Source: Saccoglossus kowalevskii (lineage: Eukaryota > Hemichordata > Enteropneusta > Harrimaniidae). From it: 53,523 bases of DNA. The notes under the pieces were generated by a model. It ran no database searches, had not been told where the DNA came from, and saw nothing but the letters and a program-made list of their open reading frames with translations. Shown in pieces: positions 1,353 to 25,572 of the stretch. Made by a program: the position numbers and the translations under genes. The DNA lies in NCBI RefSeq assembly GCF_000003605.2, contig NW_003125899.1, positions 43,522 to 97,044 of the forward strand. The letters run 5' to 3'. Position 1 is the stretch's first letter. Every line of letters begins with the position of its first letter.

Positions 1353-1421
1353 CTGGCTCAAGAAATTCGCAAACACTAGTTTTAACATTAAAAAGACTTA
1401 CTTGTTTTAGTGAATATTTAC

Positions 1422-1552
1422 CTCAAAATATAGGTCCTTTTCTTTAGTCAGACCATTTGGATCACTGGATATGAGTGTAACTTGAAAGATGTGACCATAA
1501 GAATCGGATTCGTAATTCAACTTTTCAGGACCAAGTTGAATTCGCAAATTAT
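1422..1552 (-). CDS. Exon 14: cadherin repeat 5, second half (last exon seen)
   Basis: Residues 1066-1109, 131 nt, phase 1 in and phase 0 out, acceptor TCTAG, donor GTAAAT. It encodes NLRIQLGPEKLNYESDSYG, then FQVTLISSDPNGLTKEKDL. LNYE is the cadherin Ca-binding motif. I find no further exon between here and base 1, so the gene continues off the left edge. Confidence 0.88.
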
Positions 1553-4500
1553 CTAGATGGGAGAGAATATAGGATTATTAAAGCGCTAAAGTCAGGTTAT
1601 TTTGTTCTAAATTTCAAATCATTTATAATTAACTTGCTTCTATCAGTTGAAACAACCTTGGTAGCAGAGTGATTGCGCAACTACAAGAAAATCCCAAACC
1701 ATAGTCACTGTGCTTACCATACCCACAATGGTATAATCAACCATACTCTCTATACCAACCTGGCATACCCACAATACCTACCAGTTAGCATAAATTTTCC
1801 ACTGCTGTCTATCATAGTGATGGACAAAGTATCCCCATCAGGGTCGCTAGCGGCAACCAATGCTACAAGGTCATTTGGAGCTGTTGTTTCAGGAATACAG
1901 GCATCAATGATAACACCATTTGGACCAACATGACCTGTAATATGTATTTGGAAAACAAAATCTCATCATCTTATCATTCCATCATTCAAACCACATAGTC
2001 CTGAGCATCAAAATGTTAGTCTTTGAAATTCTATTTTATTTCATATTTTATTTTAAATAGTAAATTCTCAAAATTAGTTTGACCAAAGAAAGTTTAACGC
2101 TGAAAGATGCCATATTTTTGCCTGCCATTATTTTAGTGCCACATTTTATCTATTTTTATATATTTTATGATTTTTTTGGGTTATTTTGGACCAAATACAT
2201 CATTCTCTATTGGCAATAGGTCTTGATGAAAACTTTGGAGCAATTAAACAAAATTATTATGTGCGATTTATTTTGTGAATGTGATGGAATGCAATGAAGA
2301 TTCCAATATTGATTACAAGAATAGATAGAAGTATATTTTTAGAAATACTAAAAGTAATCAAGTGAATTATTGTTCATGTCAGGTTGTGTCTGTTGCATGA
2401 TATTTGCTTCTTGAATCCAGCAACAACTCGCTCATTCTAGTTTCTCAACAATGTATGTGAACTCAGAAGCAACTGTGTAAGCCATTGCTGAAAGTTTCAT
2501 GAACTCATTGACGATTTCAGTTTTTCAAATAACCAGACAAATTTTCTAAATGATGAAGATACACTCATAGGGACTTTGCTAGTGAATTCGATAGAATTAC
2601 ATGATTGATTTTGATGTAGAAAAGTTACCTTAACAGATTGTTTTGAATTTTTATCAATTTGGTGAGAATTAAAAACAGCATATCATAACTTTTCTTTTTT
2701 TTATGATTTTTGAAGCAAGGATTCAAAATGGCTGCTCCCAAAATGTATCTATTGTAAAATTCATTGCATGTATTGTATTACCATGTATGTCAGCTGACTA
2801 CATAAACACAGAGTTGTACATACCAAAACTACACGGTTTATTGATCACCACACTGATATCATTTGGTTCTTCATTTTCATTTCCCAGAAATACCATCATT
2901 GACACAGTGATAGAGTTACTGTCACTGTCGATACAACGAACCTCAAACCCAACACCAGTTGGAAAAGTTTCGTAATTCAGATCGGCAGCAACTTTAACTG
3001 TATGACCTGTAAGTAATATGTAAGGAATTGTTAGCTGTTTTGGGAATAAAATATACTGTAAACTACTTAAATTTAACAAAAAAATTGTTTTTGTGAACTT
3101 CGAGGAAAAATCACTCAATTTTGTAGCTGTATATACAGCGTACATATGGACTGCTAAAGAAAAAATTGCCAGTATGAAAAATATCTAACAATAACAAATG
3201 CAAAAAACAGCAGCGTTAAAAAAATTGAGAATTAGCGCGCATAATTTAGAAATAGAGAAAGGACGATACACAAAAATTCCTTGCAGTGGTAGAAAGTGAA
3301 GATTGAAGACGAAATACATTTCTTACTTGAATGCAAGCCAATAAATAAAAAACCAATAAATTGATTACAATGCTAAAAAGCAATAACAGCCAAAAAATAA
3401 CAAAACTAGCAAGCTACATCTATAATTGTTTTAGTGCCAGAGAAAATCATTTCAAAAAATTACCAGCTGCCCCTAAATAAATAAACTATTTCTTTTCTTT
3501 TTTTTATTATTCTTTTCAATTTTAGCGCTTCCATTTTGTTACTTTCTCAGTTTTTCATCTTTATTGTAATTTCCTTTTTCTGAATCAATATCCAAATAAG
3601 GATATGATTATGCAATAAAGATTATTATTATTATTATTATTATTATTACTAACTACTGGGGTCATTAACATTTTATTGCTGTTCAACCAATGGAAATTAT
3701 TTCTTAGGATGCAATAAATTCATTATTATTATTATATTAAAACAGTGGTTTTGTCAACAATTTAGAATTAAAAATACAATGGTTCTCAGGACAATTATAT
3801 TTTAATTAACCAGTATACATGCAATAAATGCATTTGGGATAGAGCAAATATGGTATGTTTTGGTATACCTACCCTCAATGGCAAATAAACCATTGCTGTT
3901 GAGGAGTGTAAATATATGTGTATCAGCAGTATCTTCATCTAAAGCTGTCAGCGTACCCACTACTGTGTTCAGAGGTACGTGCTCCATTATCGTATTTGTC
4001 GATAGTGTCACACCTGTTGGCGGCTCATTTACATCAATGATACCAATCCTTATGGTGGTTCTAACACTCAAGCCACCAGAGTCTGACGCTTGTACGGAGA
4101 GTAAATAAAAGGGATGAGTTTCATAATTGAAACAATCCACATTGCCAACAAGTAAATCAGACCCCTGTATATCGAAACAAGCGTTTAGTGTGTCTAAAGA
4201 GTATGTGTGCGTATCCCCCTGGTCTGGATCTTCAGTTTCAAACCGACCAATCACTTTACCGGTCACAGTGTCGCCACCAGCTGTAAATTCAGGAACATCG
4301 CTTCCTATGAAGTTTATTTTCAGAGGCGGTTCATTCTCGTCAATGATGTCAAGTTCAAAGACTGCGCTGTTTGTTTGGATGGGCATTCCATTATCACGTA
4401 CTTGTATGTGTATTTGGTGATGTCTGTTTGTTTCGTAATCAAGCGGTCTGTTGACAACCAAGGCATTATTGACCATGGAGAATTTCCCGTTGGAGTTGGT

Positions 4501-7500
4501 GATCAAAGTGAAGTTTAACTGCTGCCCTTCATCGGGATCTAGTGCATTCAACAACGTCACTACGTCACCAACATTTGCATTTTCACTGATCGTTGTTTGC
4601 TGCCACATGGGCTGACCCGGTGGTTCATTGACGTTGATCACGTAAACTATGAGGCTAGAAATCAGCGACTCTGGTGGGATACCGTCATCAGTCGCCAGAA
4701 TTGAAACAGTGTACTGGGTCATGGTCTCAAAGTCTAGCATCCCACGTGTCCTGAGCGTGTCATGGCTTCCGATATAGAACGGGTCAGCATCATCACGCAG
4801 AAAATAAGTAAATGTCTGCATTGGGTCTGAGTCGATGCTGCGCAAATAACCAACAATATCACCATTATCAGCATCTTCAGGAATTACGTTAGACGTCAGG
4901 TATGTGGCAATTGGTGGATCATTTTCAGTTTTGCCGCTTATACCGATGCACTCAGCCGTCAGTATGCTCCACTCGCTGTTAGATAGACATGTGATGGAAT
5001 TAGAGCCAACCAAAGTGCCTAAATTAAAAATAAAGTAAAAAGTATGAAATATCATAAGTTAAAATTTTTATACATCTAATCAATTTCCAAATAACTCCCA
5101 GCATCTGGAGACAAAAATTATTTCAAATTTCTAACGTTGTGTGATTCCGTTCAAAATTAAACTAACACCAAAATTAAAATATGTACTGAGTCCTCTGAAA
5201 GAGGATGCTTTGCAGCACCTGGTTAACAAGATATAATGCATTCTACAGAGCTGTGTGATCAAGTTTATTATTTTGTAATTTTTCTTTCATATTCCTTTCT
5301 TTCATCAGCCACATCAGCAAGTTTTTCAAAGAAAACACAGTGTTACTATCAAGCCTGGAAATCAACCAGCCAAGAAATTAAAATGGGTATTTTGATATTA
5401 AACAATACTAGAAATTTCACTCATTGAAACTTACCTAGATCACAATCAATATCACACCTACTGAGATACAAGTGAGATGTTTCTTGGCACGTTATTGTGA
5501 ATCCTGGCCTGGGTGGTGGGGGTTGACATGTTGTAGGACGACAGCTTTTCCCATCAGCATTCAGTATACTACCAACCGTACAGGAACACACATAGGAACC
5601 TTCAAACGATAATTTAAAGTCATTTTGTGAAGACTGAACTCTCCATAGGATTCCAGTGAAAGTCGCTGTGAATCTCTAGGAACCCAGTGAAAGTCATTCT
5701 GACTCTCTAGGACCCCATTGAAAATCATTGTGACTCCCTAGGACCCCAGTGAAAGAGACTGTGACTCCCTAGGATTCCAGTGAAAGTCAATGTGACTCCC
5801 TAGGATCCCAGTGAAAGTCACTGTGACTCCCTAGGACCTAAGTGAAAGTCAATGTGACTCCCTAGGACACCAGTGAAAGAGACTGTGACTCCATAGGATC
5901 CCAGTGAAAGTCACTGTGACTCTATAGGACTCCAGTGAAATTGAAATATTTAGTTGTTGATGAATCCTTGACTGATCTATGAACGCCACCAAAAAATGTC
6001 ATTGAGTTAGTTGGTTACTATCAGCAATATTTATGGAATAAACACCAGACAAGTTTTCAAATATTATTTGTTGCCATGAGAATGAATGCTGGTGCATTTT
6101 CAGTACACTCATAGTCAATGCAAAGCTACATACAAGACTGTGTCTGATTGGCTACTCAACCTTAACTACTAACAGTCGGACCAACCAATGTTGTCCTACC
6201 TGTGCCATAAACCTCACAAAAATTCCTAGCAGTGAAAATTTGTGTTTTAATAAAGATGGCAATACTGATCAACTCCCTCATATACAGTGAATCTCTCCCT
6301 CCATTAAAATTACTTTCAAAGATCTTGTGCAGAAAAATTAAATCTGAAATATTCAGTATAAATAAGAAGTTGTGAGATGTGATTACCTAGTATGTTTGTA
6401 CATTGCTGCTGACAATCATTTGCTACATTACATTCATTGATATCAATGCAGGTACTACCATCTTCTTGTAATGTATATCCAATGTTACATTCACATCTGA
6501 AATTAAACAAGAGTATGTTAACAACGACAACAACAACAACTACGACAGACATAGTAACTGCTATACAGTATAATCTGAGCATAACTTAACATTAAGCTGG
6601 CTTAAAACAAGGTTAGCATGTTTTTAAATTTTCCACATATCTAAATTGTGTAATCTACATAAATATGTCTCATATGAATAACACGGATAATACCACAAAG
6701 AATATGTTGAATTTATGACGACAATAATACTCACTTTAAAATTTATAAAAAAGCCAAATCCAGCTGACAGCCAGCTTGAAAGTTAAGTTACCCCAAAACT
6801 GTTGTGTACCTCACCACTATATTTTCATTATGGGCAATGTAAAACTGAATAATAATGATTATGTTGCAAAGACAATAACATACTATATTTATTTGCTCTA
6901 TTTTGTAGCATATGCACTTACATATGGTATGCTCTATGGTCAAAATAATAAGTTATATTTTAATAATCATCCATACACAAAAAGCCTTTTTTTGCTATTT
7001 ATGTGTGCAACTATTAGAGATGCATTTCTAATAAAAACAAGCAGTCTGTCGGCTGAGATAGTTCCGCTGTTAGCTATGCACATTACAATTAAAGAACTGA
7101 AGATATCCATGGAAAATGTAGCATCAAAGCAATCAAATTTGCTGTTTTCAACAAGAATTTGAAAATACGCTTTTTCCAAAAAAGACAAAAATATTTATTA
7201 AAATTAGAGAATTGAAGATATCAAGGTACATATACCCCCGGTACACCAAGTATCAAAGCATTCAGGCTTGTAGTTTTCAAGAAGAAGTCGAAAAAGTAAA
7301 AAGTTGACATGGACGACGACGATGGACAATCACTCATATGATAAGCTCTGCTCAACAGAGTCGACAGCAGAGCTAAAAATATGGTAAATACGCAATTTGT
7401 TGTAAACCGTTATTTTCTGCTATCAATTTACGGATAACTTGAGGGAATTTATGAGATTTTATTTTTGTACTCACTGTCTCACTGTGAATTTTAGCTTGTG

Positions 7501-10500
7501 AAATAAAAGTGCTTGACAGTGAGTAAATTAATTTGCATTTGATTGTAATAAAATTGGTACAAGTTATAGGAAACATTTTGATAATGTTACCTACCTGAAC
7601 GAACCACCGGTGTTGACACATCGCTGAGAACACATATTATTGGCACTTGTACATTCGTTTGTATCCTCACACTGCCTAGTGACTTTATTGAAATGAAACC
7701 CGCTCCCACAAATGCACTGATATGATCCAGGCACATTCTGGCAGAGAGCGTTTGATGGGCATGGATTACTTCCTGTTACGCATTCATCTATGTCATGACA
7801 TGTGATTTTATTGCTTTCCAAAGTGTACCCGGACGGGCAGGAACAGTAATACGACGAGTCGGTGTTATGACAACTAAATTGGCAACCACCGTTACTGATG
7901 TGACATTCATTGGTATCTGAAAAACACAAATTCATTTAGCAATATTTTTGATATTCCATATCTGTTTGTCTTACTGGTTTCCATTTTCGCAGTTCCTCTT
8001 GCTCTAATTGGCTAATCAATGAAGACATTAATTACTAGCAATTTACACAACTGAGATAAGTACAAGGCAGACACCAAAAATATCAATAGTGAATCCTCTT
8101 AATTGCAAACAATTCCCTCAACCCCCAAGTGATTCCATTGAATCCCAATCAAATCCCTCAAACTCCAAGTGATTCCATTGAATCCAAATCGAATCACTCG
8201 TACTCCAAGTGAATCTCAAGCAAACCTCCCAATTGATAAGTTAATTCCTGGTAAATCCATTGCAACTCAAATTCTAAGTCCCAATTACATCCCAAGTGTA
8301 TCTCTCAATTTCCAAGTGAATCTAAATCAAATTCCACATATCACAAAATATACTTTGAATCCCTGAAATTCCAAATCAAGACTGTACAAATGCTGTGAAA
8401 GCTGAGACTTGTGACACTATTTGCGACACCAGGAATGATTGTCATCAGTATGGTGTTCAGTGTGTGTAGACGGTAACTCAGCTTTCACCAAAAAAACAAA
8501 AAATGACTGTATGCCAGTCTGAGTCAATCAATTAAATTCCTAAAATTCTAAGTAAATCCATTGAATCCCTTAAATTTCAAGTGAATCCCAATATTCTGAA
8601 TCTGAAAGTACTCACCTCTACATGTTCTTTGATCTGCTTGTAATGTATACCCATTAATACAAGTACAGAAGAAACTACTCTCTATGTTCAGACAGTGATG
8701 ACTACATCCGCCATTGTTAATACTGCATTCATTCGTATCTGACAAATAAAATACACAATGGTAATATTAAAGATGAGCTTCTGTCAATTTCACCAGTCAC
8801 TAATGGTAAATTATGCAAATTTGGCACCATTATTACATTTCTCATCATGATATATATTGTGATCTATGATAGACATGTTTCTACACTACATACACTAGGT
8901 ATACTTACCGTCACATGTGTGTTCATCTGTCTGTAGATGATATCCTTGTCTACAAGCACACATATACGAACCGTACAAATCAATACATATATGATCACAT
9001 TCACCACGGCCATCATTATGCTGACAGGAATCAATTTCTGAAAAAACAAGCCATGCATGGCATAGTTCCTGTTAGTTATCAAATTTAAGATATATAGTTT
9101 GATGATTTTTTAACATTAAAATGATTGACATCTTGTATCTTATCGTCAAACGAGTACTTGTCCATATTGAGGGATATTGCTCTGGAACAGCATTAATTAA
9201 AACAAAATGGCCACCGGTCAGCCAATTTGAATACATCTATATATCTATAACATTATGTATAATGAATATATAAAAAAATTATGATTTTTTAGCACAAAAA
9301 TGGTCGCCAATTGGCCATTTTGAATTAGATAGTCAAACCAATATATCTATGTCATGATGTATAATGAATATATCAAATTTGAACATAATCAATCAAAGCA
9401 TGTCAGAGATATGGCCCAAGAAGTGCAATCATTAAAACAAAATGGCCACCAGTCAGCCATTTTGAATCCGATCTGAAATGACGGCCATCAAAGTCTCATA
9501 ATGTTCAACGTATGTACCAAGTTTGAACAAAATCTATCCATAAATGCTTGATTTTGATGATTTTTTGCACAAAAATGGCCACCATTCAGCCATCTTGAAT
9601 CTGATCGTGAAACAATATGTATGTACATGTATGATGTATATGTGAGGTTTGAATGTATTCGACCCAGGCATGTCTAAGATATAGGTTTGGATGCACTGAC
9701 GCACAGAAGTCAATCCATAAGTCCATGTATTCGGACTGCGTAAGAATGGGGACTAAAAACAGAGTGAGTGTCTAATAAACCTAGTGAATAATTAGTGTGT
9801 TTACAGTAGTTTCTCATAGAATTTCTGGTTTTAGAAGCTCCATCAAGACAGCATTCAAATTATTAATTCTGAATTATGGTCACTTGATCGTCTTATTCTT
9901 ATATATGTACAACAGTCAGGTAAGGCATGTTTATGACAATTTATAAACCCAACTTTTTTCATTTTAAATAAGTCTCATTCAAATCCAAATGAAACAATTA
10001 GATTGGATAGGAAGTGCCTCTCTCATGTGTTGTATTGGAACAACCTACATCACTGCATGAGCTCAAACCAGTTTATAAGGTACCTGCCTCTCCCGACTTT
10101 GGTGTATACAACGTACAGAAAGCCATACTTGTTAGATATGTGTGCCATGTATGCCATGTACAAAATGCATATTTCATTTACACACACAAAAAAATACACA
10201 CTGTGCAATGACAGGTTGTTTAACATGCAATGCAACAAAACTGCTCACCTGTTCCGAGTTGTCTGTCAGGGTGTACCACGTGTATAGCCGTCGGATAGCT
10301 AAAATAACCTGTAATGATCACCTTATCATTCTTATCATGTTTATTCAAATTCACGATATGGTGTAGTTGTTGATCTGTCCAGTAGATGCGATCGTCATAC
10401 TGCGTCAATCCATAAGGATGAAAGGTACTCGGATTATCTACCAACACCTGTCTAGCATTGCCGTTCAAATCACAACTCTCCACTTTGTCGGTCGTCGCAT

Positions 10501-13500
10501 CTGCCCAATATATCATCTGAAAAGACAAAATTAAAACTCATCACAGAACTGTAGAATATACCCGTAAAAAAAGTTTCAGATTATTATAACAAAATTACCT
10601 ACTAAGTATAATTAAATACATGTATACTTATTTTTTGCCAGAAGAATATTTATTTTGTTTGAGAAGTATATGAAATAAAATGCTTGAAGTATAGGTACTG
10701 TGATGTCATTTGTTTAAATTTTTGTCATTCAACATGCGAATGCCTGTTAACAAATATCACCCACTGATCAACAAAAGTCTCAATCTGTTCTGCCAAAGTT
10801 GTTTTAATTTCGTAACAGGAACACACACATATTCAATAAAAATAGTGGACAACATCTTTCAGTTTTCACCAACCAGTCACTACATACATGTAAAATATTT
10901 GCTATTACAATGCCCTATTGTTAATTGAAAATAAGTCTATTTCCACATAAATACAGGGCAAGGGTAAAATTCAACATTGCCCTCTTTCATAATTAGATAA
11001 GAAATGGTCAAGTGCAATTCAATATATCACTCAGTTTATGCAAATCACAACGACACTCCATTCAAATGAGGTCAGCAGATAAACAACATAAATTTAACAA
11101 ACGCTTAGCTCTGCACAGCTGGGTTTAGCTAATTTAAACATATTCCTTACCCTATCAATGTAATCCACCGTGATAGCATTGGGTTTTGCTAATTTAAACA
11201 CTGAAATGCAATTATATTCCTTACCCTATCAATGTAATCCAACGTGATAGCATTGGGTTTTGCTAATTTAAACACTGAAATGCAATTATATTCCTTACCC
11301 TGTCAATGTAATCCACCGTGATAGCATTGGGTTTTGCTAATCCAGTACTGATTATGGTCGTCTGCTGAGAACCATCAGACATTCTTGCTTTCTGAATAGT
11401 TGGTTGTGCGTCATATACATCAGTGAAATAAAACCAGTCACTGTGGGGGTCCAAAGCAATTCCCCTAGGTTCATAGATATTGGTTGTAATTAAAACAATC
11501 CGATTGGTGCCATCCAATCCAATCTTTTCTATAACAGATCTTACTGGAAATCAGAGAGAAATATTTATATACTAGTAACAGGGTATATAGCGCCCTCATA
11601 CTAAAAAATTAAAACTTTTGTTTTTATTGATCAACTACTGTAAAAGGGGTAATTATTCACTGTGTTTTAATTTAGCTTATTTCGCTGACTGGAAAAATGC
11701 GCTAAATTAAAACACAGTGAATATGTAAAATTTAGCATAGAACACATTATCTAAATAACGAAACCGTGAATTTAAAACCCACTGAATATGCCTGAAATGG
11801 TAAATCAGTGAAATTTAAACCCAGTGAAAATTAGTCATTTTACACTATTAAGTCATAATTTCATAATATAAGTCATACAATAGACAACTTACTGCGATCA
11901 GTAAAAAATAATTTTCTATTTTTCCAATCAACTGCTATTCCATCAGGTACTTCTATATCATCTACTACAAAATCCTCAACAGTATTTTGTGCATTGTCAA
12001 TTTCAGCTCTGAAAATAAAAATGTTATAAGTAATTATCATCAAGAGGCATAGCGATATTCTAAGCAGTTTGATTTACCAAAGACGAAAAAACATTTTTCA
12101 TGGAATGCTGTGAAATTTTGTTGCAGTGAATTTCATCAGAATCTTACAGTGAGTCATAGTGTTGGGTGAAGAGGGAGGCAAGAGTATTTTTTGTAACCCC
12201 TCTCCTTCTAACTCTAATTCTAACCCAATTCACTTGTGTACTAGTATGCCTCCTCTAGATAACTACAGTTTTCCCTAGGAGGGTCATGTACAATTAAATT
12301 GGGGAGCGCTATAGGGTAGGGGTAGGGTTAGTGTTACGGGTGGGGGGGTATAAAAAGAGCTCCAAGAGGGACAGACAGCTCATGGTTTGAAAATTATCCA
12401 ATTCCGAACCACAATAGAAATATCACCCACTAAGTACTCAGTAAGATAAGATCAGTAACATTAATCTATGCTATATAGATATAGTCATAGCATCAAGTTG
12501 TGTTCGATCTTAGTTCTGTGCAATTAACGTAAAAGACATTGTTTGTTTACACAATATATAAATACATAAAATCACATCAACTTTGTTTAACATTCATTCA
12601 CACTTCACCTCTGTATTTTCCTTGTCAAGTGATCACTCCAATATATATACCCAGATGCATAATCATAATCCAATGCCACCACATTCAGTAAGCCTTCAAC
12701 AAGTCTTCTATAATTGGTGCCATCAAAATTCAACTTCCTGATATCAAAACTATTTGCAAATATTAGATATGGTTCAGGTTGGAATTGCTGCTGAGCTTGA
12801 ACTGAAACAAGGAGAAGATAAATTGTCTTAGATTCCGGTGGAATAAAATATGTTATGTAAATCTCAAATACTGGGTACTAACCTCGTAATTCGGCTTAAT
12901 TATCGTTTGGCAACAATTACTGATTTTTAAGTATTGGAATGTAAGAAACATCAATGTTATGAACTAACACAGTTTAGTTTATTTTCTGAAAAATTGTTTT
13001 ATGTTGATGTGGAATTAAACTATGTCATGTAAATCCTAACTACCAGGTATTAATCCTGTAATCCTGCTTAGGTATAGCGAGGCAACAATTATTGATTATT
13101 AAGTATTGGAATGTCACAAACTTCAATGTTACAAAAAAAAAGTTTGGTTTATTTTCATAAATTCTTTATGTTGATGAGTTAGATATACTATTTATACTTA
13201 AACCTATGTTAATAGAAACACAATTTTTCCCCTTTTTTTGCTCTTTTTGCCCATGTGTTCCTACCTGATTTTGTAATTAATTACACATGAACATTACACA
13301 AATCATAGATTTTCCATAACAAAACTGTACTGCACATATGCTTTCTCCGGGAAGCATATATTGTTGAAATTTTTTTTTTTACAACTACTTGAGCGTTTTT
13401 GCACAGTGGTAAATTTATGCTCCAGGTATATATTGAATAAATTACTTTTATTATATGACTTAACAAGTCTATAAAAAATACATCATGCACTTATGCTCAA

Positions 13501-16500
13501 AAAACTGACAAAGATTGAATGCAGTTCTCTCTGGGGGATAAACACATTTTTTTCTCAGCACAGTCAACGCTCACACCACAGATGACTAAAATTCTCAGGA
13601 ATTTGGACATCGTCTTTAATCTTAAGATATTCGGTTGATTATTGTTACATTAGTGGATAAGCAAATACTGTAATATAGTGTCCTTGTACTGATTGGATGT
13701 TCAGTGGGTGAAATAAATGATTCATGCACGAGCAGACCAGCTCATGAGACTGCAATGGTACGTACAGAGTAATAAAGAAATATTTGTCAACATTCATTTA
13801 ACAATTACTTTCAAAGTTGTCTTTTCTTTGTGAAGTTATAAACATATAAATGAGATTTTCCATCCTGTTTTTTCAGCACATCGGGTAACAATTGAAGTTT
13901 CAGCACAATACGCAAAAGACCCTGACCCAGAAAAGACTGAATTATTGTTTGTGATATAGTTGTATTGACAACAAACAATTTTGTTTGTGAATATGTTTAT
14001 TCTCATTATTTATTGATTCAAATTTGAATCAAATATCTATAAAATCTGAGCTACGGTAATGACACTTTTATAATGCTCAACACATTCTACAATGAATGAC
14101 TCATCATGTTTGTAGCAACCCAATCATAATATCAAACCCTTTGTTAACAGTCACACAATAAACTTTTATACCATTTATGTAAAAAGTCACAGAAATGTGT
14201 GATAAATGTTATACATTTCCTGTGATCACATTGGTGTTTTAATTAGTACTACAGTTTATTGCGCCCTTGGCTCAACTACCAGGTGTCTATGACATATTGT
14301 ACTAATTCTTTACAGTCACGATTTCATTTCAACCAAAAACCCATTCATGCTGTCAGTAAAGTTGTCACAAGGCAGAATTATTCAAGACCATTTCCTGCTT
14401 GAATATTAAAAAGGATGTTATATATTTTTCACAAAGGACACAAAGTTTGACTCTTTGGTGCAATATTTTACTTATTTTTTTTTATATTTTCCTATAATTT
14501 CTTTCTTAATTTAGGACCAAATGGACATAATCTTGCATTGGCTACAGATATTCAATTTTTGTTCTTCACAAAATAAATCCATATATTTTTATTAAAATCA
14601 GCAGCCAATGGGAAAGTATGTGCAGTTGATCTAAAAACAACAGAGATATTATAGAAAAATACATAAAAATCTATCAAACTTACATGCTACATTGAAATAA
14701 TCAATATCTCAATAATAATAATTTAAGGTAATTTATAAAACAATTATAATAACATCAGATTGGATTTATGAAAAATATAAAAATATTTTGTAATTTTAAA
14801 AATTCCTGGTTAATTGTTATTAAATATGTAAAAGTTTTTATTAATTCCTGGTATCATGTTTTTGGCTGTATTGTCAATACAATACTTTGCTGATACTGTA
14901 CTTTCTTTCAGCTGAAATTAATTTTCACTGAAAAGACATTTTTGGGTGTTTTGTACAGAATTTATTTTCACTGATTTTTGATGAGTTGATGTAAAATATA
15001 GGAAAAAAGAAATATTTGTTGGATTTGATTTTCAATAAATCACCCCTTCAGCAAAAATAGTGAAAATAAAGTCTTTTCCAGTATTGCATTATATTGACAA
15101 TACATTATCTATGGTAGTATTGCTATTATAGTGAGTCCATTACTCTTTGATTTTTAATTTCTTATTCCATTATATCTTTTATAAAGTTTTGTCATCATCT
15201 TATACAAATTCTTATTGTCCAATACACTTCTAATTTTACTCACCAATTTATCACCCTACTTCCCTGTGATAATAATAGAATAGACCTATCTATTTTTGTG
15301 TCTATTCAGTTCAAGTGTGTTTCCCAGGGCACATTGAGTATATTAACAATGCCTGGCTAAAGAAATAAACTACAATGTCAGTGAGCTTCTATTGTACTTT
15401 CCTCAAGGTACAAGTGCTAAATTTGGACGATTTACCTATACTGTGTTTGCTGTAATAGTAACGCATGCACTTGTGTAAATGACATAGCCTATAGCTACCT
15501 TGTATGAAATATCATATTTCAATGAATACATTAATGCAATATTTGCTTATATGTGCCTCTGATAGCGATTGGCTTCTAGTAAAGCAAATATGTTTAACAA
15601 AAACAGTAAATGCATAATTTATTCACTTGATTTTAATATCACTAAATTAATTCTATATGACCATGTAAAATTACTGTAGAACTCATTTTTTTTTGCTGAA
15701 AACCCATGAATTTGGAAACCTAGTAAATATGATACAATATCAATATAGTTCAATACTAGTGAAAATAAATGCTTTTACAATATTTTCACAGCATAGAGTC
15801 AAGTGACCCCCCTCCCCAACAAATCTACAACAAACAAGCAATGCAATAATAGGGAAAATAAATATATTTTAAATATATACATAGGTTTTACAAAGCAAGC
15901 ATCGATCACCCCCAGGAAATTTGTTAGTGTTAGCAGAAGAATAAATTTGTCAGTATGTCCTTAAAAGTTGGTGGTCATCATGAAAGCTGGTGCAGGATCA
16001 TTATGACACACATATGCGAGATTTGTGCAGATAAACAGTGATATTTTCCACAATGCAATTCACTCCCTCAGCGGCTAGCATGAATGAGATGTGTACTAAC
16101 TCATTAGAGACCATTGATGCGTTACAACCACTGAGTAAACCTTGATAGCATGTTGATCTGCGAAACAATCAAAGTCTCTTTTTTTTATTAATCTGAGACC
16201 CATATGCGCAGCGCACTGATTCTGGTTTATATATATTCCTCTGATTTGACTACGGTTAAATGAATTTGCCACAAGTTCAGTGTGGGAGTTCTTCTAAAAA
16301 TAGATCTGATGCAATCAGAATGCTGTTCAATACATGCAGACGTAGATATTGTTTGAGAACCGACTGTTACTTCTTTGTAACTTCAGTGATTTGTTGCATG
16401 CAAATCCCAAGGAAGTTCATTATCTGAACAAAGACCTTACTAATTATTTCACTGCCATGGCAGTTATAAATATATGTCCGTTACTATTCTATTTTTTTAC

Positions 16501-19500: not shown

Positions 19501-22500
19501 AAAACCTATACATACATCTCATAATTTTTAATGAAGAAGACAAACATATATTTCAGTCAAAAGAATTTATTCAGTGGAACTCAATAACCATCAAAGCAAC
19601 ATTACAACAATATAGTTGCTTTGTAATGAAAATAACAGTTTTAAACTAGACATTCTGTCAATTTTTAAAGCGTGACAAGACTCAGACATTGTTGACTTGG
19701 ACAACAAATTATATGTATCATTTCCAGTTATTGTGTGAAGTAATTTTAAAGAATCTCACTTCATTTTATACCAATGCAAATTTGAAATTCTATCAAGTAA
19801 ATGTAGATAGAAACAAAAAAGTGTTGAAGCTATTTACACTGATAATTCCTATCTGTGCTACATTATTTGTATATATATTTACAATGACTACTATGAGGCA
19901 ATTATTATTGACTGGGTATTCAACACCAAGATTACTCATTTTCGTATTAGGATACACATTTTAAAACTTATTGAGTCATTATCACTGATGTACATGTTAT
20001 ACGAGTGATGTTACACAGCAATTAACACGCATTAGTATGTATGTGGTAAAGAAAGTGCTCAACTTTAAATGCATCTTGTGAAAATGCACATTTATATTAT
20101 ATTTTGACCAAAAACTAATTTATAACTTGTATATTTTAGCCTTGGTGAAACTGAAAGTAAAGCTACTGTAATTGCTGGAAACAACACACATTAAATATGC
20201 TGGCATTTATAGAGTTAATAATATGTACATAGTTAAGGTCACTGAACAAAGGAAATCAAGTGTACTATACTGCACCATGCTGTGGTTTCCATGGCAACAG
20301 AGCATATAATGGGCACAGATGTTACAATCATTCTAATATAGACACATACACCTATGTGCTATCCACTCCACTGTACAAGGTGAAAGTATGCAACTACCCT
20401 GGTGTAAAACCTCCACTGCACCCTGGTGAAACCGTGCATCCTCTGCACCCTGGTGATACCATGCATCCTCTGCACCCTGGTAAAACCATGCATCATCTGC
20501 ACCCTGGTGAAACCATGCATCCTCTGCACCCTGGTGAAACCATGCATCATCTGCACCCTTGTGAAACCATGCATAATCTGCACCCTGGTGAAACCATGCA
20601 TCATCTGCACCCTAGTGAAACCATGCATCCTCTGCACCCTGGTGAAACCATGCATCATCTGCACCCTGCTGAAACCATGCATCATCTGCACCCTAGTGAA
20701 ACCTTGCATCCTCTGCACCCTGGTGAAACCGTGCACCCTCTGCATGCTGGTAAAACCGTGCATCCTCTGCACCCTGGTAAAACCATACATCCTTCTTATC
20801 CTTGCGAAACCATGCATCCTCTGTACCCTGGTAAAACATGCATCCTCTGTACCCTGGTGAACCCATGCACCCTCTGCGCCCTAGTGAAACCATGCAACCT
20901 CTGCACCCTGGTGAAAGCTAGCATCCTTTGTATCCTGGTGAAACCATGCATCCTCTGCACCCTGGTGAAACCATGCATCCTCTGCACCCTGGGGAAACCT
21001 TGCATCCTCTGTACCCTAGTGAAACCATACATCCTCTGCACCCTGGTTAAACCATGTATCCTTTGTATCCTGGCGAAACCGTGCATCTACTGCACACTGG
21101 TGAAACCATGCATCCTTTGTATCCTGGTGAAACCATACATCCTATGTACCCTGGTGAAACCATGCATCCTTTGTATCCTGGTAAAACCATACATCCTCTG
21201 CACCCTGGTAAAACCATGCATCCTTTGTATCCTGGTTAAACCATGTATCCTTTGTATCCTGGCGAAACCGTGCATCTACTGCACACTGATGAAACCATGC
21301 ATCCTTTGTATCCTAGTGAAACCATGCATCATATGTACCCTGTTGAAACCATGCATCCTCTGAGCCCTGGTAAACCCATGCATCCTCTGCACCCTGGTGA
21401 AACCTTGCACCTCTGCACCCTGGTGAAATCATGCTTCCACTGCACCCTGGTGAAACCTTGCATCCTCTGCACCCTGGTGAAACCTTGCATCCTCTGCACC
21501 CTGGTGAAACCATGCATCCTCTGCACCCTGGGGAAACCTTGCATCCTCTGTACCCTAGTGAAACCATACATCCTCTGCACCCTGGTAAAACCATGCATCC
21601 TTTGTATCCTGGTTAAACCATGTATCCTTTGTATCCTGGCGAAACCGTGCATCTACTGCACCCTGGGGAAACCTTGCATCCTCTGTACCCTAGTGAAACC
21701 ATACATCCTCTGCACACTGGTGAAACCATGCATCCTTTGTATCCTGGTGAAACCATGCATCCTATGTACCCTGTTGAAACCATGCATCCTCTGAGNNNNN
21801 NNNNNNNNNNNNNNNNNNNNNNNNNNNNNNNNNNNNNNNNNNNNNNNNNNNNNNNNNNNNNNNNNNNNNNNNNNNNNNNNNNNNNNNNNNNNNNNNNNNN
21901 NNNNNNNNNNNNNNNNNNNNNNNNNNNNNNNNNNNNNNNNNNNNNNNNNNNNNNNNNNNNNNNNNNNNNNNNNNNNNNNNNNNNNNNNNNNNNNNNNNNN
22001 NNNNNNNNNNNNNNNNNNNNNNNNNNNNNNNNNNNNNNNNNNNNNNNNNNNNNNNNNNNNNNNNNNNNNNNNNNNNNNNNNNNNNNNNNNNNNNNNNNNN
22101 NNNNNNNNNNNNNNNNGCACCCTGGTGAAATCATGCATCCTCTGCACCCTGAAGAAACCTTGCACCTCTGCACCCTGGTGAAATCATGCATCCTCTGCAC
22201 CCTGGTAACTTGCATCCTCTCCACACAGGTGAAACCATGCATCCTCTGCACCCTGGAGAAACCTTGCACCTCTGCACCCTAGTGAAATCATGCATCCTCT
22301 GCACCCTAGAGAAACCTTGCCCCTCTGCACCCTGGTGAAACCATGCATACTATACACCCTGGAGAAACCTAGCACCTATTCATCCTGGTAAACCCATGCA
22401 TCCTCTGCACACTGGTGAAACCTTGCATCCTCTGCACGCTGGTGAAATCATGCATCCTCTGCACCCTGGGAAACCTTGCACCTCTGAACCCTGGTGAAAT

Positions 22501-24628
22501 CATGCATCCTCTGCACCCTAGAGAAACCTTGTACCCTATGCACCCTGAAGAAACCTTGCACTTCTGTACCCTAGTGAAACCATGCATCCTCTGCACCCTA
22601 GAGAAACATTGCACCTCTGCACCCTGGTAAAACCTTGCATCCTTTGTATCCTGGTGAAACCATGTAACCTCTGCACCCTGGTAAAACTTTGTATCCTGGT
22701 GAAACAATGCATCCTCTGCACCCTAGAGAAACCTTGCACCTCTGCACCCTGGTAAAACCTTGCATCCTTTGTATCCTGGTGAAATCATGCAACCTCTGCA
22801 CCCTGGTGAAAGCTTGCATCTTTTGTATCCCAGTGAAATCTTGCATCCTCTGCACCCTGGTGAAACCTTGCATCCTCTGCATCCTGGTGAAATCATGCAT
22901 CCTCTGCACCCTGGGAAACCTTGCACCTCTGTACCCTGGTGAAACCATGCATCCTCTGCACCCTAGAGAAACCTTGCCCCTCTGTACCCTGGTGAAACCA
23001 TTTATCCTATACACCCTGGAGAAACCTAGGACCTCTTCACCCTGGTAAACCCATGCATCCTCTGCACACTGCTGAAACCTTGCATCCTCTGCACGCTGGT
23101 GAAACCATGCATCCTCTGCACCCTGGGAAACCTTGCACCTCTGAACCCTGGTGAAATCATGCATCCTCTGCACCCTGGGGAAACCTTGCACCTCTGAACC
23201 CTAGAGAAACCTTGTATCCTATGCACCCTGAAGAAACCTTGCACTTCTGTACCCTGGTGAAACAATGCATCCTCTGCACCCTAGAGAAACATTGCACCTT
23301 TGCACCCTGGTAAAACCTTGCCTCCTTTGTATCCTGGTGAAACCATGTAACCTCTGCGCCCTGGTAAAACTCTGTATCCTGGTGAAACAATGCATCCTCT
23401 GCACCCTAGAGAAACCTTGCACCTCTGCACCCTGGTAAAACCTTGCATCCTTTGTATCCTGGTGAAATCATGCAACCTCTGCACCCTGGTGAAAGCTTGC
23501 ATCCTTTTTATCCCAGTGAAACCTTGCATCCTCTGCACCCTGGTGAAACCATGCATACTCTGCACCCTGGTGAAACCATGCATCCTCTGCACTCTAACAC
23601 ATCAGTGTGTGACTTTTTTTGCCGAACAGTGAAAACATGAGTGAGAGACAAGACAATGTACTGTAGTGACTATAAATAGAAGCTGGGCGTAACGCAGAAT
23701 GAAAGAATATGTTGAATACAATTCACAAAGGGAAAATGACCTTTAGCAATATCAACAATTGTTTGACACTGAACATAGACAGTATGCAAATGGTGCCCAC
23801 AATGACCACCAGAAGCTGTTATCCACAAGTTAATGAAAGGATACATAATACGTATAATTCATAATTGTCGTTTTTATAAAACAATGAAAAAATGAAGCAC
23901 AGAATAATACAAGTATTAAAAATATCAAAACAGCAGAATTATAAAAGACTGGTAGTCATTATTGATGTCCTGGCATCAGTTCAATTATAGGATTAATCAC
24001 TTTCACCTGAAATTCAAAATCAATGGTAATCAACTGATTATTCGTTTTTTTAAGTATAATACAAACTTGATTTGATAAGGAAATAGAATGACACCTGTTG
24101 GACTGGTAATTATATCAAACTAGAAATCATACTGTATTTGTTCTATTAGAAGCGCATCTCTAATAGAAGTGCATATAAACCAAAAAGTGCATGTATTGTA
24201 TATTGATTGACAAGCTGTTAGCAATCCACTGACTTGAAATAAACAATGGACACAATACAAGACAAACATGAAGAGTGAAATACAATTTGACTTATAATCT
24301 ACAGTACTGTACTGTAAATGTATTAATTATTCACTGGGTTTTAATTTTGGCACATTTTGCTGTGAGTGAAATCTGCTGAAATTGAATTCATTTAAAAGTA
24401 AAAATGACCACAGAACTCATAGTTTTACTAATAAATACAGCAAATATGCTCTCAAAATGTCAAAATGCAATGCTATTTTAAAAGTGTAATTTGATTTTTT
24501 ATGGAAATTTACCTGCAATGGGGAGGGGATGTTTAAAAAATAATAATTTAATAATTGACAAATTCATCAATGCAATCAATGCAATAATTTAATCAATACA
24601 AGAATTTGAACCAAAACAGAGACGTGAA

Positions 24629-24717
<89 letters not shown>

Positions 24718-25572
24718 CAGACAGACACACAGTTCCATCCTGTATTGTATTCATCTCTGTTTATAGCACAACTTGAACCAAGTGAAAGCATGGAGGTTCC
24801 TCCATGATTAAAAGTAGGGAAGGGAGCATCAACTAACTACTAGTACCAGTAAGTTGCAATTCGAAATTTAAACACCCTCTAAAAATAACAAACACATGTG
24901 TGAATAGCACTTTATCTTTGAATTCATTGTGAGAGTTTACTCCTTTATTCAACTTCAATGCTGAATACAAACGTTCTCTTGACCATGGAGCTAAACAGTT
25001 TTGTTACGCATCTAGCAAGGATACCCCGACTTTCTGCGTTTCCAATGTCACTCCGCAATGTAAGATGTACGTGAAAGTACGGTTCAAGTTCGAGCGGTAG
25101 ATTGGTTGGTAATTTAACGATCTAATTTACAGGCCTTTTGTTTTCGAAATTTATGCATTATAAGCAGTGTATTAAGTCCCGCTATAAAGTGTTTCTATAC
25201 GTAAAGCGTCGATCCGTGTCTCTATTGTCTAAGAGCGATGAATGTAGCAGACGGTCTAATGTCGTGCTTTGCGGTACCACAGCTTTCAGACAATGGAAAT
25301 ACAGGTCGCTGAACGACAGTGTAAATACGTTGTTTTGCACCAGCCTTTTGTTCGTTCGCCAATGCCTATGCATCAAAACAAGTCGATGACGGCGACACGA
25401 TCCAAGCCGGCTAGATCCAAGTTTGAATGGCAACGCCGAGGTGCGCGTCCCGTCTCACGCTACCTTAGCTAAAATCGATGTGTGAATGAATCAATCATAT
25501 GGAAAACCTAGTTCAATTTCAGAACTTACCTGTGACTAAGAGTATTCCAATCAAAAAGGTGTTTTGGGCCAT
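1422..25572 (-). CDS. Mosaic extracellular protein: signal peptide, YWTD propeller, EGF, sushi, cadherin repeats (3' partial)
   Basis: The minus-strand coding sequence was assembled by hand as the join, in coding order, of 25530-25572, 12609-12801, 11893-12008, 11299-11543, 10249-10516, 8909-9037, 8616-8738, 7595-7916, 6387-6496, 5435-5599, 3873-5018, 2824-3006, 1782-1934 and 1422-1552. This gives 3327 nt, or 1109 codons, with no stop. All junctions are GT/AG and keep frame. Modules in order are: signal peptide 1-17; six-bladed LDLR class B propeller about 22-288; EGF 289-331; five cbEGF modules about 332-536; sushi/CCP-like module 541-595; cadherin repeats 604-705, 706-803, 804-905, 906-1001 and 1002 onward. 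No transmembrane segment is in the window, so membrane anchorage is unknown. From the families I infer a secreted or cell-surface, Ca-dependent adhesion or receptor role. I do not recognise a named orthologue, so the symbol is left empty. The 3' end lies beyond base 1. Confidence 0.88.
1782..1934 (-). CDS. Exon 13: cadherin repeat 5, first half
   Basis: Residues 1015-1066, 153 nt, phase 1-1. It encodes ACIPETTAPNDLVALVAA followed by SDPDGDTLSITMID and GKFMLTG. The 'E..A..LVA.V.A.DPDGD.L' arrangement is a cadherin repeat start. The donor is GTAGGT. Confidence 0.88.
1935..2823 (-). other. Intron 12
   Basis: 889 bases of AT-rich sequence. I see no exon, RNA gene or clear repeat. Confidence 0.8.
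2824..3006 (-). CDS. Exon 12: cadherin repeat 4 end, repeat 5 start
   Basis: Residues 954-1015, a phase 1-1 exon of 183 nt, acceptor TTACAG and donor GTATGT. It contains DLNYETFPTGVGFEVRC (LNYE = cadherin LDYE), IDSDSNSITVS, then the linker GNENEEP and the opening of the next repeat, ISVVINKPCSFG. Confidence 0.9.
3007..3872 (-). other. Intron 11
   Basis: 866 bases of AT-rich sequence. It contains two AATAAA-(ATT)n tails (about 3615-3650 and 3708-3740) that look like retrotransposon 3' ends. Confidence 0.75.
3873..5018 (-). CDS. Exon 11: sushi end plus three and a half cadherin repeats
   Basis: Residues 572-954, a single 1146-nt exon, far longer than the others. After the sushi end (C595) come cadherin-type repeats ending in NVNEPP, DENEPP and DVNEPP, with ALDPDEG, EDPDQGDTHTYSL, PLDYET, ASDSGGLSV and PPTGVTLS motifs. 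LDYE and DPD acids are the Ca ligands. The wording is close to the 'VNEPP..DPD.GDTHTYSL..SGGLSV' cadherin subtype that is also common in giant bacterial adhesins, rather than to the DxNDN linker of classical cadherins. Donor is GTAGGT, phase 1 to phase 1. The upstream in-frame ATG near 5055 lies in the intron and is not a start. Confidence 0.93.
5019..5434 (-). other. Intron 10
   Basis: 416 AT-rich bases with nothing recognisable. Confidence 0.8.
5435..5599 (-). CDS. Exon 10: end of EGF 6 and first half of sushi/CCP-like module
   Basis: Residues 517-572. It begins SYVCSCTVGSILNADGKSC, closing EGF 6. A new module follows with TTCQPPPPRPGFTITC, then LYLSRCDIDCDL. With exon 11 (VGSNSITCLSNSEWSILTAEC) this gives the C..P / ITC / W..C pattern of a sushi (CCP) domain, although the extra cysteines RCDIDC make it divergent. 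Acceptor is the unusual AAG; donor is GTAAGT. Phase 1-1. Confidence 0.85.
5600..6386 (-). other. Intron 9
   Basis: 787 bases, holding a 31-bp minisatellite (5645-5940) and a copy of a dispersed repeat (about 6118-6200). Confidence 0.8.
5645..5940. repeat. 31-bp minisatellite in intron 9
   Basis: About nine units, each with a CCAGTGAAAGTCACTGTGAC core followed by TCCCTAGGA. Variation between units is mostly single bases (e.g. GTCAATGTG, GAGACTGTG). AGTCACTGTGACT within the unit is a short palindrome. Confidence 0.85.
6387..6496 (-). CDS. Exon 9: end of cbEGF 5, start of cbEGF 6
   Basis: Residues 480-517. It completes the previous module with CECNIGYTLQEDGSTC and opens the next with DINECNVANDCQQQC and TNILG. 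Acceptor TTTCAG and donor GTAATC; phase 2 in, phase 1 out. Confidence 0.92.
6497..7594 (-). other. Intron 8
   Basis: 1098 bases, with a (GTT)n-like microsatellite near the exon 9 acceptor (6516-6540) and a dispersed repeat at 7012-7374. Confidence 0.8.
7012..7374 (+). repeat. Dispersed repeat, family A, copy 2
   Basis: It shares GGCTGAGATAG..CCGCTGTTAGC, CAATTAAAGAACTGAAGATA and AACAAGAAGTCGAAAA with copy 1, and ends with CTCTGCTCAACAGAGTCGAC near 7350. Overlapping ORFs on both strands here are repeat shadows. Confidence 0.65.
7595..7916 (-). CDS. Exon 8: two and a half calcium-binding EGF modules
   Basis: Residues 373-480, 322 nt. Three successive cbEGF starts are visible (DTNECHISNGGC, DIDECVTGSNPC, DTNECTSANNMC) with hydroxylation-type motifs CHNTDSSYYCSC, CQNVPGSYQCIC and CVNTGGSFR. 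The third module continues in exon 9. Acceptor is CAG and the donor is GTAGGT. Phase 1 in, phase 2 out, so modules 3 and 4 have fused into one exon and the fifth module is split inside. Confidence 0.94.
7917..8615 (-). repeat. Intron 7 with degenerate short tandem repeats
   Basis: Around 8100-8350, and again at 8530-8600, phrases such as CCAAGTGATTCCATTGAATCC and close variants recur at about 35-40-base spacing. This is a decayed minisatellite. The ORF across it is a by-product. Confidence 0.5.
8616..8738 (-). CDS. Exon 7: calcium-binding EGF module
   Basis: Residues 332-372, a phase 1-1 exon of 123 nt encoding exactly one module. It starts DTNECSINNGGCSHHC and contains CLNIESSFFCTC and GYTLQADQRTC. 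The D-x-[ND]-E-C start plus the Asn in C-x-N mark a Ca-binding EGF. One module per symmetric exon is the standard exon-shuffling unit. Confidence 0.94.
8909..9037 (-). CDS. Exon 6: propeller-closing EGF module
   Basis: Residues 289-331, a phase 1-1 exon of 129 nt. It shows six cysteines in EGF spacing, beginning EIDSCQHNDGRGECDHIC and followed by GSYMCACRQGYHLQ and a final HTC. The sequence CIDLYGSYMC fits the Asp/Asn beta-hydroxylation consensus C-x-[DN]-x4-[FY]-x-C-x-C. An EGF module here packs against the propeller in LDLR and LRP families. Confidence 0.93.
9038..10248 (-). other. Intron 5
   Basis: 1211 bases. The block 9195-9640 is a set of diverged hairpin-forming repeats. The remainder, to 10248, shows nothing recognisable. 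Confidence 0.8.
9195..9640. repeat. Hairpin-bearing tandem repeats in intron 5
   Basis: Four to five diverged copies of a unit containing AAAATGGCCACC..CAGCCATTTTGAAT occur at about 9205, 9298, 9437 and 9575. The arms AAAATGGC and GCCATTTT can pair in each. A related piece lies near 46475. Confidence 0.6.
10249..10516 (-). CDS. Exon 5: last propeller blades (IYWAD, IYWTD)
   Basis: Residues 200-288, acceptor TTTTCAG and donor GTGAGC, phase 0 in and phase 1 out. It carries MIYWADATTDKVESCDLNG, then HPYGLTQYDDRIYWTD, and ends in YPTAIHVVHPDRQ. The last motif corresponds to the 'HP.RQ' signature that closes LRP-type propellers directly before the EGF module. Together with exons 2-4 this gives IYWSD, LFFTD, FYFTD, IYWAD and IYWTD plus the N-terminal strand, a complete six-blade set. 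Confidence 0.93.
10517..11298 (-). other. Intron 4 with duplicated exon end
   Basis: 782 bases. The part nearest exon 4 consists of 74-bp tandem copies of the exon 4 end and donor site. The rest is AT-rich without visible features. Confidence 0.8.
11120..11345 (-). repeat. 74-bp tandem triplication covering the exon 4 donor
   Basis: The phrase TATTCCTTACCCT starts at 11141, 11215 and 11289, an exact 74-base period. Each copy contains the last coding bases of exon 4 (to D-Y-I-D-R) and the donor GTAAGG. The two outer copies have CTATCAATG where exon 4 has CTGTCAATG. A further partial copy precedes 11141. Confidence 0.9.
11299..11543 (-). CDS. Exon 4: propeller blades with FYFTD motif
   Basis: Residues 118-199. 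It contains IEKIGLDGTNR, IYEPRGIALDP, the YWTD variant FYFTD, and ITVDYIDR at the 3' end, which pairs with MIYWAD at the start of exon 5. Acceptor TTTCCAG, donor GTAAGG, phase 0 at the end. The last part of this exon together with its donor is copied two more times in tandem just downstream (11141-11288). Reading past this donor reaches a stop after 11 codons, so the downstream donor copies would give a truncated product. Confidence 0.92.
11544..11892 (-). other. Intron 3, mostly one MITE
   Basis: 349 bases, of which about 210 (11636-11845) are the palindromic MITE-like element annotated separately. Confidence 0.8.
11636..11845. mobile_element. MITE-like palindromic element (TTTAATTT type)
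   Basis: The left end TACTGTAAAAGG..ATTCACTGTGTTTTAATTT is roughly the reverse complement of the right end AAATTTAAACCCAGTGAAAA..CATTTTACA. Length is about 210 with no coding capacity. Related copies lie near 24310 and 28062. Confidence 0.6.
11893..12008 (-). CDS. Exon 3: propeller, second YWTD-type blade
   Basis: Residues 79-118, with acceptor TTTTCAG and donor GTAAGT. It contains the characteristic VPDGIAVDW segment (usually 'GLAVDW' in LDLR class B repeats) followed by KLFFTDR, an LFFTD version of YWTD. Phase 2 in and phase 1 out; the split codon makes Ile with exon 4, restoring the typical 'TD-x-x-x-x-x-I' continuation. Confidence 0.9.
12009..12608 (-). other. Intron 2
   Basis: 600 bases without recognisable coding or repeat structure beyond a G-rich stretch near 12300-12350. 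Confidence 0.8.
12609..12801 (-). CDS. Exon 2: first part of YWTD propeller
   Basis: The exon is bounded by TTTCAG at the acceptor and GTGAAG at the donor. It encodes residues 15-79: the mature N-terminus with a Gln-rich QAQQQF stretch, a first strand LIFANSFDIRKLN, then the diagnostic IYWSD motif followed by HLTRKIQR. The order of an 'LIFAN..IR' strand before the first YWTD is what LRP, LDLR and EGF-precursor propellers show at their start. Entry is phase 1 and exit is phase 2. Confidence 0.9.
14894..15085 (+). mobile_element. MITE-like element, family B copy 1
   Basis: TACTGTACTTTC..CAGCTGAAATTAATTTTCACTG at the left, ATTTATTTTCACTGATTTTTG inside, and CTTCAGCAAAAATAGTGAAAATAAAG at the right. 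It matches 41546-41732 (inverted) and 43984-44194. Confidence 0.65.
15672..15783. mobile_element. MITE-like element, short family B relative
   Basis: It starts TACTGTAGAACTCATTTTTT with GCTGAAAA and ends CAGTGAAAATAAATGCTTTT-like (GTGAAAATAAATGCTTTTACAATA). Shorter than the other copies. Confidence 0.4.
16567..16626. repeat. (AATG)n microsatellite
   Basis: About 15 copies of a tetranucleotide (GAAT/TGAA) with one AAAT variant. A short ORF reading HSFIHSFIHSF is caused by it. Confidence 0.97.
17245..17312. repeat. 34-bp direct duplication with CCAAT and homeodomain-like motifs
   Basis: TTTGTGATTGGTTAATTAG followed by TTTTCAACTAA occurs twice in direct succession. ATTGG is an inverted CCAAT box and TTAATTAG is a homeodomain-type core. 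Confidence 0.85.
18665..18912. repeat. A-rich (AAAAATACC)n low-complexity tract
   Basis: About 250 bases of imperfect CAAAAAATAC/CAAAAATAT units, all without T-rich interruption. It drives two false ORFs. Confidence 0.95.
20398..23600. repeat. 27-bp minisatellite with higher-order structure (gap inside)
   Basis: About 118 units' worth of sequence at a 27-base period, including the N gap. Each unit starts at ATGCAT and carries CTCTGCACCCTGGTGAAACC. The first kilobase keeps a strict 27-base rhythm. From about 22120 on, shortened variant units (e.g. TTGCACCTCTGCACCC) are interleaved. Larger blocks recur: the section around 22384-22720 returns at 23041-23420 (offset 657, then 683), and GGCGAAACCGTGCATCTACTGCA recurs near 21071, 21260 and 21637. 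Because 27 is a multiple of three and stops are absent, five of six frames stay open. Confidence 0.97.
21796..22116. other. Assembly gap in minisatellite
   Basis: A run of 321 N inside the 27-bp array; the real array length is unknown. Confidence 0.99.
24310..24490. mobile_element. MITE-like element, TTTAATTT type, diverged
   Basis: It begins TACTGTAAATG..ATTCACTGGGTTTTAATTTTGG like the element at 11636. The right end is decayed. Confidence 0.4.
24629..24717. repeat. (GATT)n microsatellite
   Basis: Some 22 perfect copies of a TTGA/ATTG tetranucleotide. Confidence 0.98.
25530..25572 (-). CDS. Exon 1: start codon and signal peptide
   Basis: Exon 1 encodes MAQNTFLIGILLVT plus the first base of a split Val. 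It is followed by the donor GTAAGT (phase 1). The ATG has G at -3 and G at +4, a strong Kozak context. The hydrophobic run FLIGILLVTV followed by QA (completed by exon 2) gives a short secretory signal peptide with a plausible V-Q-A cleavage site at about residue 17. A 12.7-kb intron follows, so the N-terminus would be missed by simple ORF calling. The join to exon 2 is supported by phase and by the signal-peptide sense. It is not proven by a transcript. Confidence 0.75.

Follow-up and report, generated by a model that had tools for sequence, protein, structure and literature searches.

An acorn-worm exon chain predicted to join an LRP-type propeller, EGF, sushi and cadherin modules, with candidate transmembrane and tail exons downstream

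A minus-strand chain of exons in the Saccoglossus kowalevskii genome (572 Mb) can be read as a single protein that comprises an LDL receptor/LRP-type YWTD propeller with its adjoining EGF, five further calcium-binding EGFs (cbEGFs), a putative sushi module and five cadherin repeats with conserved calcium-ligand positions. The DNA analysed, hereafter the window, is a stretch of 53,523 nucleotides (C1850:43522-97044). Together with three exons found beyond the window, we consider it probable that the chain forms one gene for a large type I receptor, LRP-like and endocytic, that carries a rod of cadherin repeats. The initial annotation had proposed 14 minus-strand exons and 1,109 residues between positions 1422 and 25572; this count and these coordinates were confirmed, with the signal-peptide exon staying a prediction.

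Each of the 13 exons A to M (1422-12801, minus strand) is bounded in the window sequence by an AG acceptor and a GT donor. Spliced together, they encode 1,094 residues with no frame break, and the phases match at all 12 in-frame GT-AG junctions, while the two alternative frames of the spliced sequence contain 69 and 136 stops. The GC content is 0.413 in coding and 0.322 in intron sequence. No N occurs within 1-12801, the two N runs of the window being localized at 21796-22116 and 40148-40724. Exon M ends at a phase-0 donor, the chain is open at its 3' end and the gene runs past the window. Exons with phase 1 on both sides, here E and F, are the expectation under exon shuffling. Two tandem repeats lie among these exons. 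A 74-bp unit that takes in the last part of exon C together with the GTAAGG donor (2.7 copies, 97% matches, 11140-11341) extends into the C-D intron and creates duplicate donor-like sites, and a 31-bp minisatellite (5641-5940, 9.7 copies) stops some 40 bases short of exon I and its weak acceptor.

Table 1. Exons of the predicted propeller-cadherin gene and candidate downstream exons. Positions are those of the window, except for X1 to X3, which are given on C1850.
Feature	Position	Strand	Evidence
Signal-peptide exon MAQNTFLIGILLVT(V), phase-1 donor GTAAGT	25530-25572	-	Predicted; rank 1 of 16 candidates
Exon A, propeller start	12609-12801	-	GT-AG, in frame; Pfam and PDB matches to LRP propellers
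Exon B, propeller	11893-12008	-	Frame, Pfam, PDB alignment
Exon C, propeller; 3' end and donor tandemly copied in next intron	11299-11543	-	Frame, Pfam
Exon D, final propeller blades	10249-10516	-	Frame, Pfam, PDB alignment
Exon E, EGF 1, class 1-1, adjoins propeller as in LRPs	8909-9037	-	Frame, Pfam, PDB
Exon F, cbEGF 2, class 1-1	8616-8738	-	Frame, Pfam, own-repeat model
Exon G, cbEGFs 3 and 4, first part of 5	7595-7916	-	Frame, Pfam, own-repeat model
Exon H, end of cbEGF 5, start of cbEGF 6	6387-6496	-	Frame, Pfam, own-repeat model
Exon I, end of cbEGF 6, first half of sushi	5435-5599	-	Frame, Pfam, PDB
Exon J, second half of sushi, cadherin repeats 1, 2, 3 and first half of 4, one open frame	3873-5018	-	Frame, Pfam, PDB; single 100% genome locus
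Exon K, second half of cadherin repeat 4	2824-3006	-	Frame, repeat alignment, own-repeat model (circular)
Exon L, first half of cadherin repeat 5	1782-1934	-	Frame, repeat alignment, own-repeat model (circular)
Exon M, second half of cadherin repeat 5; phase-0 donor	1422-1552	-	Frame, repeat alignment, own-repeat model (circular)
Exon X1	C1850:26146-26250	-	GT-AG, in frame
Exon X2	C1850:24889-25105	-	GT-AG, in frame
Exon X3	C1850:23599-24289	-	GT-AG, in frame, ends at TGA

The signal exon adds 15 residues to the 1,094 over a phase-1 intron, with a valine codon split as G and TT, which gives the total of 1,109. It ranks first among the 16 phase-1 candidates upstream of exon A, with a hydrophobicity of 3.38 and a donor score of 12.9 as defined by a rough matrix built for this analysis. 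A plus-strand control also yielded 16 candidates, with a top hydrophobicity of 1.75 among the best 6 of the 16. The predicted exon is the weakest link of the chain: it lies 12.7 kb upstream, across an intron with a 321-base N run inside a minisatellite. The minisatellite has a 27-bp unit, occupies 20412-21793 (about 51 copies) and 22117-23592 (about 56 copies) on the two sides of the N run, and gives rise to long open frames, for example 20233-21363 on the plus strand.

We searched the 1,109 residues against Pfam, considering matches up to E = 1. Of the modules proposed in the initial annotation, propeller, EGF and cadherin were found above the cut-offs and Sushi below. Ldl_recept_b scored 94.8 bits (cut-off 21) over four stretches and EGF_CA 132.5 bits (cut-off 27), with three EGF models (FXa_inhibition, cEGF and EGF_CA) matching six stretches each. 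A search of the PDB with the propeller and EGF returned 77 sequences at E of 0.001 or below. Among the best 60 of these, the first 35 are chains of LRP2, LRP4, LRP6, LRP8, VLDLR and LDLR, followed by nidogen (row 36), designed or bacterial propellers and C1r. Propeller 1 of LRP4 aligns end to end with the acorn-worm propeller (172.8 bits). The YWTD propeller with an adjoining EGF, a feature of the LDL receptor/LRP family, is thus present according to both Pfam and the PDB.

Cadherin scored 102.2 bits (cut-off 28.8) over four stretches in Pfam, that is, at least two tandem repeats. The cadherin part also matched 77 PDB sequences, and among the best 60 of them CELSR1 and protocadherins stand on top, with cadherin-23 and others after. 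An alignment of the five repeats reveals five invariant columns: the E of PE, both D of DxD, the core F and the E of DxE (LDYE). The invariant E and D positions are presumably calcium ligands. The D of the DxE motif is kept in repeats 1 and 2 and is replaced by N in repeats 3 to 5. The linkers read NVNEPP, DENEPP and DVNEPP after repeats 1 to 3 and NENEEP after repeat 4, that of repeat 5 lying beyond the end of the read sequence; the canonical form is DxNDNxP. The strength of adhesion is thus doubtful, given NxNEPP or DxNEPP linkers instead of DxNDNxP and N for D in the DxE of repeats 3 to 5.

The putative sushi module is the weakest of the four module calls and draws on a full-length Pfam alignment and six cysteines rather than on a strong score. 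Sushi reached 17.7 bits, below its cut-off of 20.7, yet all profile positions (1-56 of 56) are covered. The sushi piece alone matched 33 distinct PDB sequences at E of 1 or below, of which 23 are complement regulators or receptors by our own count; the best whole-sequence E was 8.6e-5 and the best single-stretch i-Evalue only 0.84. Profile models built from the gene's own repeats recover their own exons by construction, so that only the absence of other matches is informative; over the whole window, the only other matches of these models below E 0.05 were to the 74-bp copies of the exon C end. NCBIfam, searched with exon J and the candidate tail, gave nothing above the cut-offs, and Rfam gave no match in the window at gathering thresholds.

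Extending the search leftward for the 3' end, past 16.5 kb of N (C1850 positions 27025-43521; positions 1-13555 also read N), revealed same-strand EGF, transmembrane and tail exons and a stop, X1 to X3, which we infer to be linked to exon M. Joined, they encode the last part of one EGF and the whole of another, of Notch type, followed by a transmembrane helix and a tail that runs to a TGA stop. The Notch-type EGF, in X1 and X2, barely exceeds its Pfam cut-off (22.1 versus 21.5 bits). The tail comprises 249 residues from WTKRRR and holds ENPTF, YQNPSY and NNPVY. In 200,000 shuffles of the tail, the proportion with three NPx[YF] motifs was 2e-5; in 100,000 shuffles, the proportion with [FY]xNPxY was 7.5e-4. 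Only YQNPSY fits [FY]xNPxY, the aromatic residue of NNPVY being one place off FxNPxY. Against the PDB, the transmembrane and tail part gave EGF matches and a few weak others. The transmembrane and juxtamembrane part (C1850:24889-25105) has a sub-threshold Pfam match to TMEM154 (25.1 versus 30.3 bits, E 1.8e-5), which is not accounted for by the LRP-like receptor reading. Further downstream, at C1850:13830-17567 on the minus strand, long open frames follow one another and may belong to a mobile element or to another gene.

We are fairly confident that X1 to X3 form the 3' end of the propeller-cadherin gene. Exon M and X1 are 18.7 kb apart, 16.5 kb of which reads N. The phase-0 end of M does not fit the phase-1 start of X1, which excludes a direct splice between them and requires one or more additional exons within the 16.5 kb of N, where more of the ectodomain would be encoded. 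The N stretch, the phases that do not fit directly and the Notch type of the EGF in X1 and X2 would also be consistent with X1 to X3 ending another gene. The chain from propeller to cadherin would then be the same, and the mosaic would be secreted or otherwise anchored, as a calcium-stiffened matrix linker. We regard this as unlikely, if a serious alternative: X1 to X3 lie on the same strand as A to M, the 0.8 kb and 1.4 kb flanking the N stretch contain no match to an EGF or cadherin model below E 0.02, and members of the LRP family likewise combine such a head with an NPxY tail. Notch-type EGFs are common in many receptors.

The claim of the initial annotation that the modules belong to one chain in this order is supported by the in-frame exons and by exons common to adjacent modules. 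The EGF and sushi modules share exon I and the sushi and cadherin modules share exon J, which rules out two adjacent genes for the EGF-sushi-cadherin part, and this predicted fusion has more behind it than splicing guesses. Cadherin repeat 4 is complete only as J plus K, and repeat 5 only as L plus M. For the step from propeller to EGF (D to E), the evidence is splicing over 1.2 kb, in a chain known from genomic DNA, and a short propeller-EGF gene (exons A-D or A-H) might therefore stand next to an EGF-sushi-cadherin gene. Such a split is very unlikely, given that the phases fit at 12 of 12 junctions, that exons I and J hold parts of EGF, sushi and cadherin, and that most LRP rows among the best 60 of the 77 PDB matches run through propeller and EGF in the same order (e.g. 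query 7-315 in 3v65). A chimeric scaffold or a spurious exon chain is scarcely credible even in an assembly of 4830 contigs with N runs, as 1-12801 is free of N, coding and intron GC differ, and domains split by introns are completed across them, which is not expected of a random join.

The suggestion that the architecture is possibly undescribed was not contradicted by comparison with the literature, Pfam and the PDB. Among the literature matches listed, with the scope set to papers other than subscription ones, no title or opening of an abstract described a propeller-EGF-sushi-cadherin architecture, and the one paper with both Ldl_recept_b and cadherin concerns helminth genome content (PMC4413821). 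The architecture is a new order and combination of known modules, for which a gene model may well already be in public annotation. In the genome itself, the propeller and EGF query gave at least 58 matches, of which five come from the locus itself (82-96%, not exact towards the exon ends) and the other 53 reach at most 48% (propeller) or 56% (short EGF matches). Exon J gave at least 52 matches; one is at 100% and the 51 others do not exceed 43%. In these lower-bound lists, C1850 is the only contig common to propeller and cadherin. A Pfam family search of the genome gave 45 matches and missed this propeller, and an exon-by-exon search misses copies split by introns; a divergent second copy may exist elsewhere in the genome.

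The initial annotation had compared the chain with named vertebrate proteins, which is the wrong comparator: the mitochondrial code excludes a vertebrate. On the mitochondrial contig (C4830, 17,037 bases), COX1 is a minus-strand gene in which TGA encodes Trp; five of the six tRNAs found there are on the plus strand. Nine of the 10 ATA codons of COX1 could be aligned with the best PDB chain (7o37_a), where they face Ile (5), Val (2), Leu (1) and Met (1); ATA thus most likely encodes Ile. Some non-bilaterian mitochondrial codes also read ATA as Ile. Lys stands opposite the single AAA, and the 529 codons include neither AGA nor AGG. Passages of two papers give ATA as Ile in echinoderms and hemichordates and Met in chordates, and AAA as Asn in echinoderms but Lys in Saccoglossus kowalevskii; they also report that COX1 is inverted in Saccoglossus (PMC3121625, PMC2697986). 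By its code and its COX1 strand, C4830 very likely comes from this acorn worm or a close relative.

We scanned prokaryote genomes with 788 of the 1,109 residues, and one relative was confirmed among 66, in a Flavobacteriales MAG. The MAG protein (L001 6001-9327) is 29% identical to query residues 564-788 only, that is, the end of the sushi module and cadherin repeats 1 and 2. A scan of viral contigs with 200 of the 1,109 residues (cadherin repeats 1 and 2) confirmed no relative among nine candidate stretches. The acorn-worm gene has introns and animal relatives, in contrast to what a bacterial or viral origin of the cadherin part would suggest.

Taken as one gene with X1 to X3, the predicted receptor would begin with a signal peptide, the YWTD propeller and EGF, five more cbEGFs and the sushi module. 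Five or more cadherin repeats and a further ectodomain segment within the N stretch would follow, and then the Notch-type EGF, a single transmembrane helix and a cytoplasmic tail in which NPx[YF] occurs three times. The N-terminal propeller may bind a secreted or matrix ligand, held off the membrane by calcium-stiffened cbEGFs and cadherin repeats; this rod may also engage a partner on an adjacent cell. The NPxY motifs could recruit PTB-domain adaptors and clathrin, so that the ligand or the adhesion complex would be internalised. The initial proposal of a surface protein that couples ligand uptake with calcium-dependent adhesion thus appears reasonable, strengthened by the downstream transmembrane and NPxY exons. 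We also suggest, tentatively and with a little less than even confidence, a hemichordate branch of LRP-like endocytic receptors in which a calcium-stiffened rod of cadherin repeats and a sushi module take the place of the LDLa clusters, so that one molecule both adheres and removes its ligand or its own adhesion complex via NPxY. LRPs serve uptake and Wnt/agrin-type signalling, and cadherins adhesion. If the transmembrane helix and NPxY tail belong to the gene, it would be a natural fusion of these two usually separate superfamilies, in which exon shuffling gave an adhesion receptor of an invertebrate deuterostome its own endocytic head and tail. Otherwise, it would be one more of the many lineage-specific extracellular mosaics held by invertebrate genomes.

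Comparison with known families separates the familiar from the unusual parts of the chain. The cbEGF arrays had been likened to fibrillin and LTBP; the cbEGFs stand, and a fibrillin/LTBP source is not needed. The matches are to FXa_inhibition, cEGF and EGF_CA, and no TB (8-Cys) domain was found by Pfam at E of 1 or below in the 1,109 residues, which rejects membership of the fibrillin/LTBP family. These EGF types also accompany propellers in LRPs. The true mosaic, as predicted, is the LRP-like part plus sushi and cadherin. Nidogen and the EGF precursor likewise contain a YWTD propeller with EGFs; the acorn-worm chain differs by its cadherin repeats and by the absence of NIDO and G2F domains from the 1,109 residues, which rejects membership of the nidogens. 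In Polydom/SVEP1 and polydom-like proteins, EGF also adjoins sushi in the passages available (PMC12549020), whereas the chain described here has a propeller and cadherin repeats and, within the 1,109 residues, no vWA, HYR or pentraxin in Pfam, which sets it outside this family. Mega-thrombospondins, large mosaics with central cadherin domains that are reported to be absent from vertebrates, carry N-terminal LRRs and a TSP C-terminal region unlike the acorn-worm chain, and neither propeller nor YWTD is mentioned in the main text of the paper on them (PMC6526912). Membership of these was rejected: no LRR is present in the N-terminal 1,109 residues, and the readable C-terminus, if part of the gene, is a transmembrane helix and tail.

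CELSR/Flamingo, FAT and Dachsous share with the acorn-worm protein tandem cadherin repeats with conserved calcium-ligand positions and, if X1 to X3 belong to it, EGF near the membrane. This protein differs from them by its LRP propeller head, its NEPP linkers and its candidate NPxY-type tail, with no laminin G found by Pfam in the readable parts (16.5 kb reads N). Compared with the LDL receptor family, it has a single propeller right after the predicted signal peptide, followed by sushi and cadherin repeats in the places that LDLa clusters or additional propellers occupy in LRPs. No LDLa was among the Pfam matches at E of 1 or below in the 1,109 residues, and a narrow LDLa regular expression found none in the window or readable flank, a weak result as its companion EGF expression missed the known flank EGF. 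LRP4, LRP5-LRP6, LRP1-LRP2 and LDLR are nonetheless alike in the YWTD propeller followed by an EGF, and the candidate transmembrane helix and NPxY tail would extend this likeness to the C-terminus.
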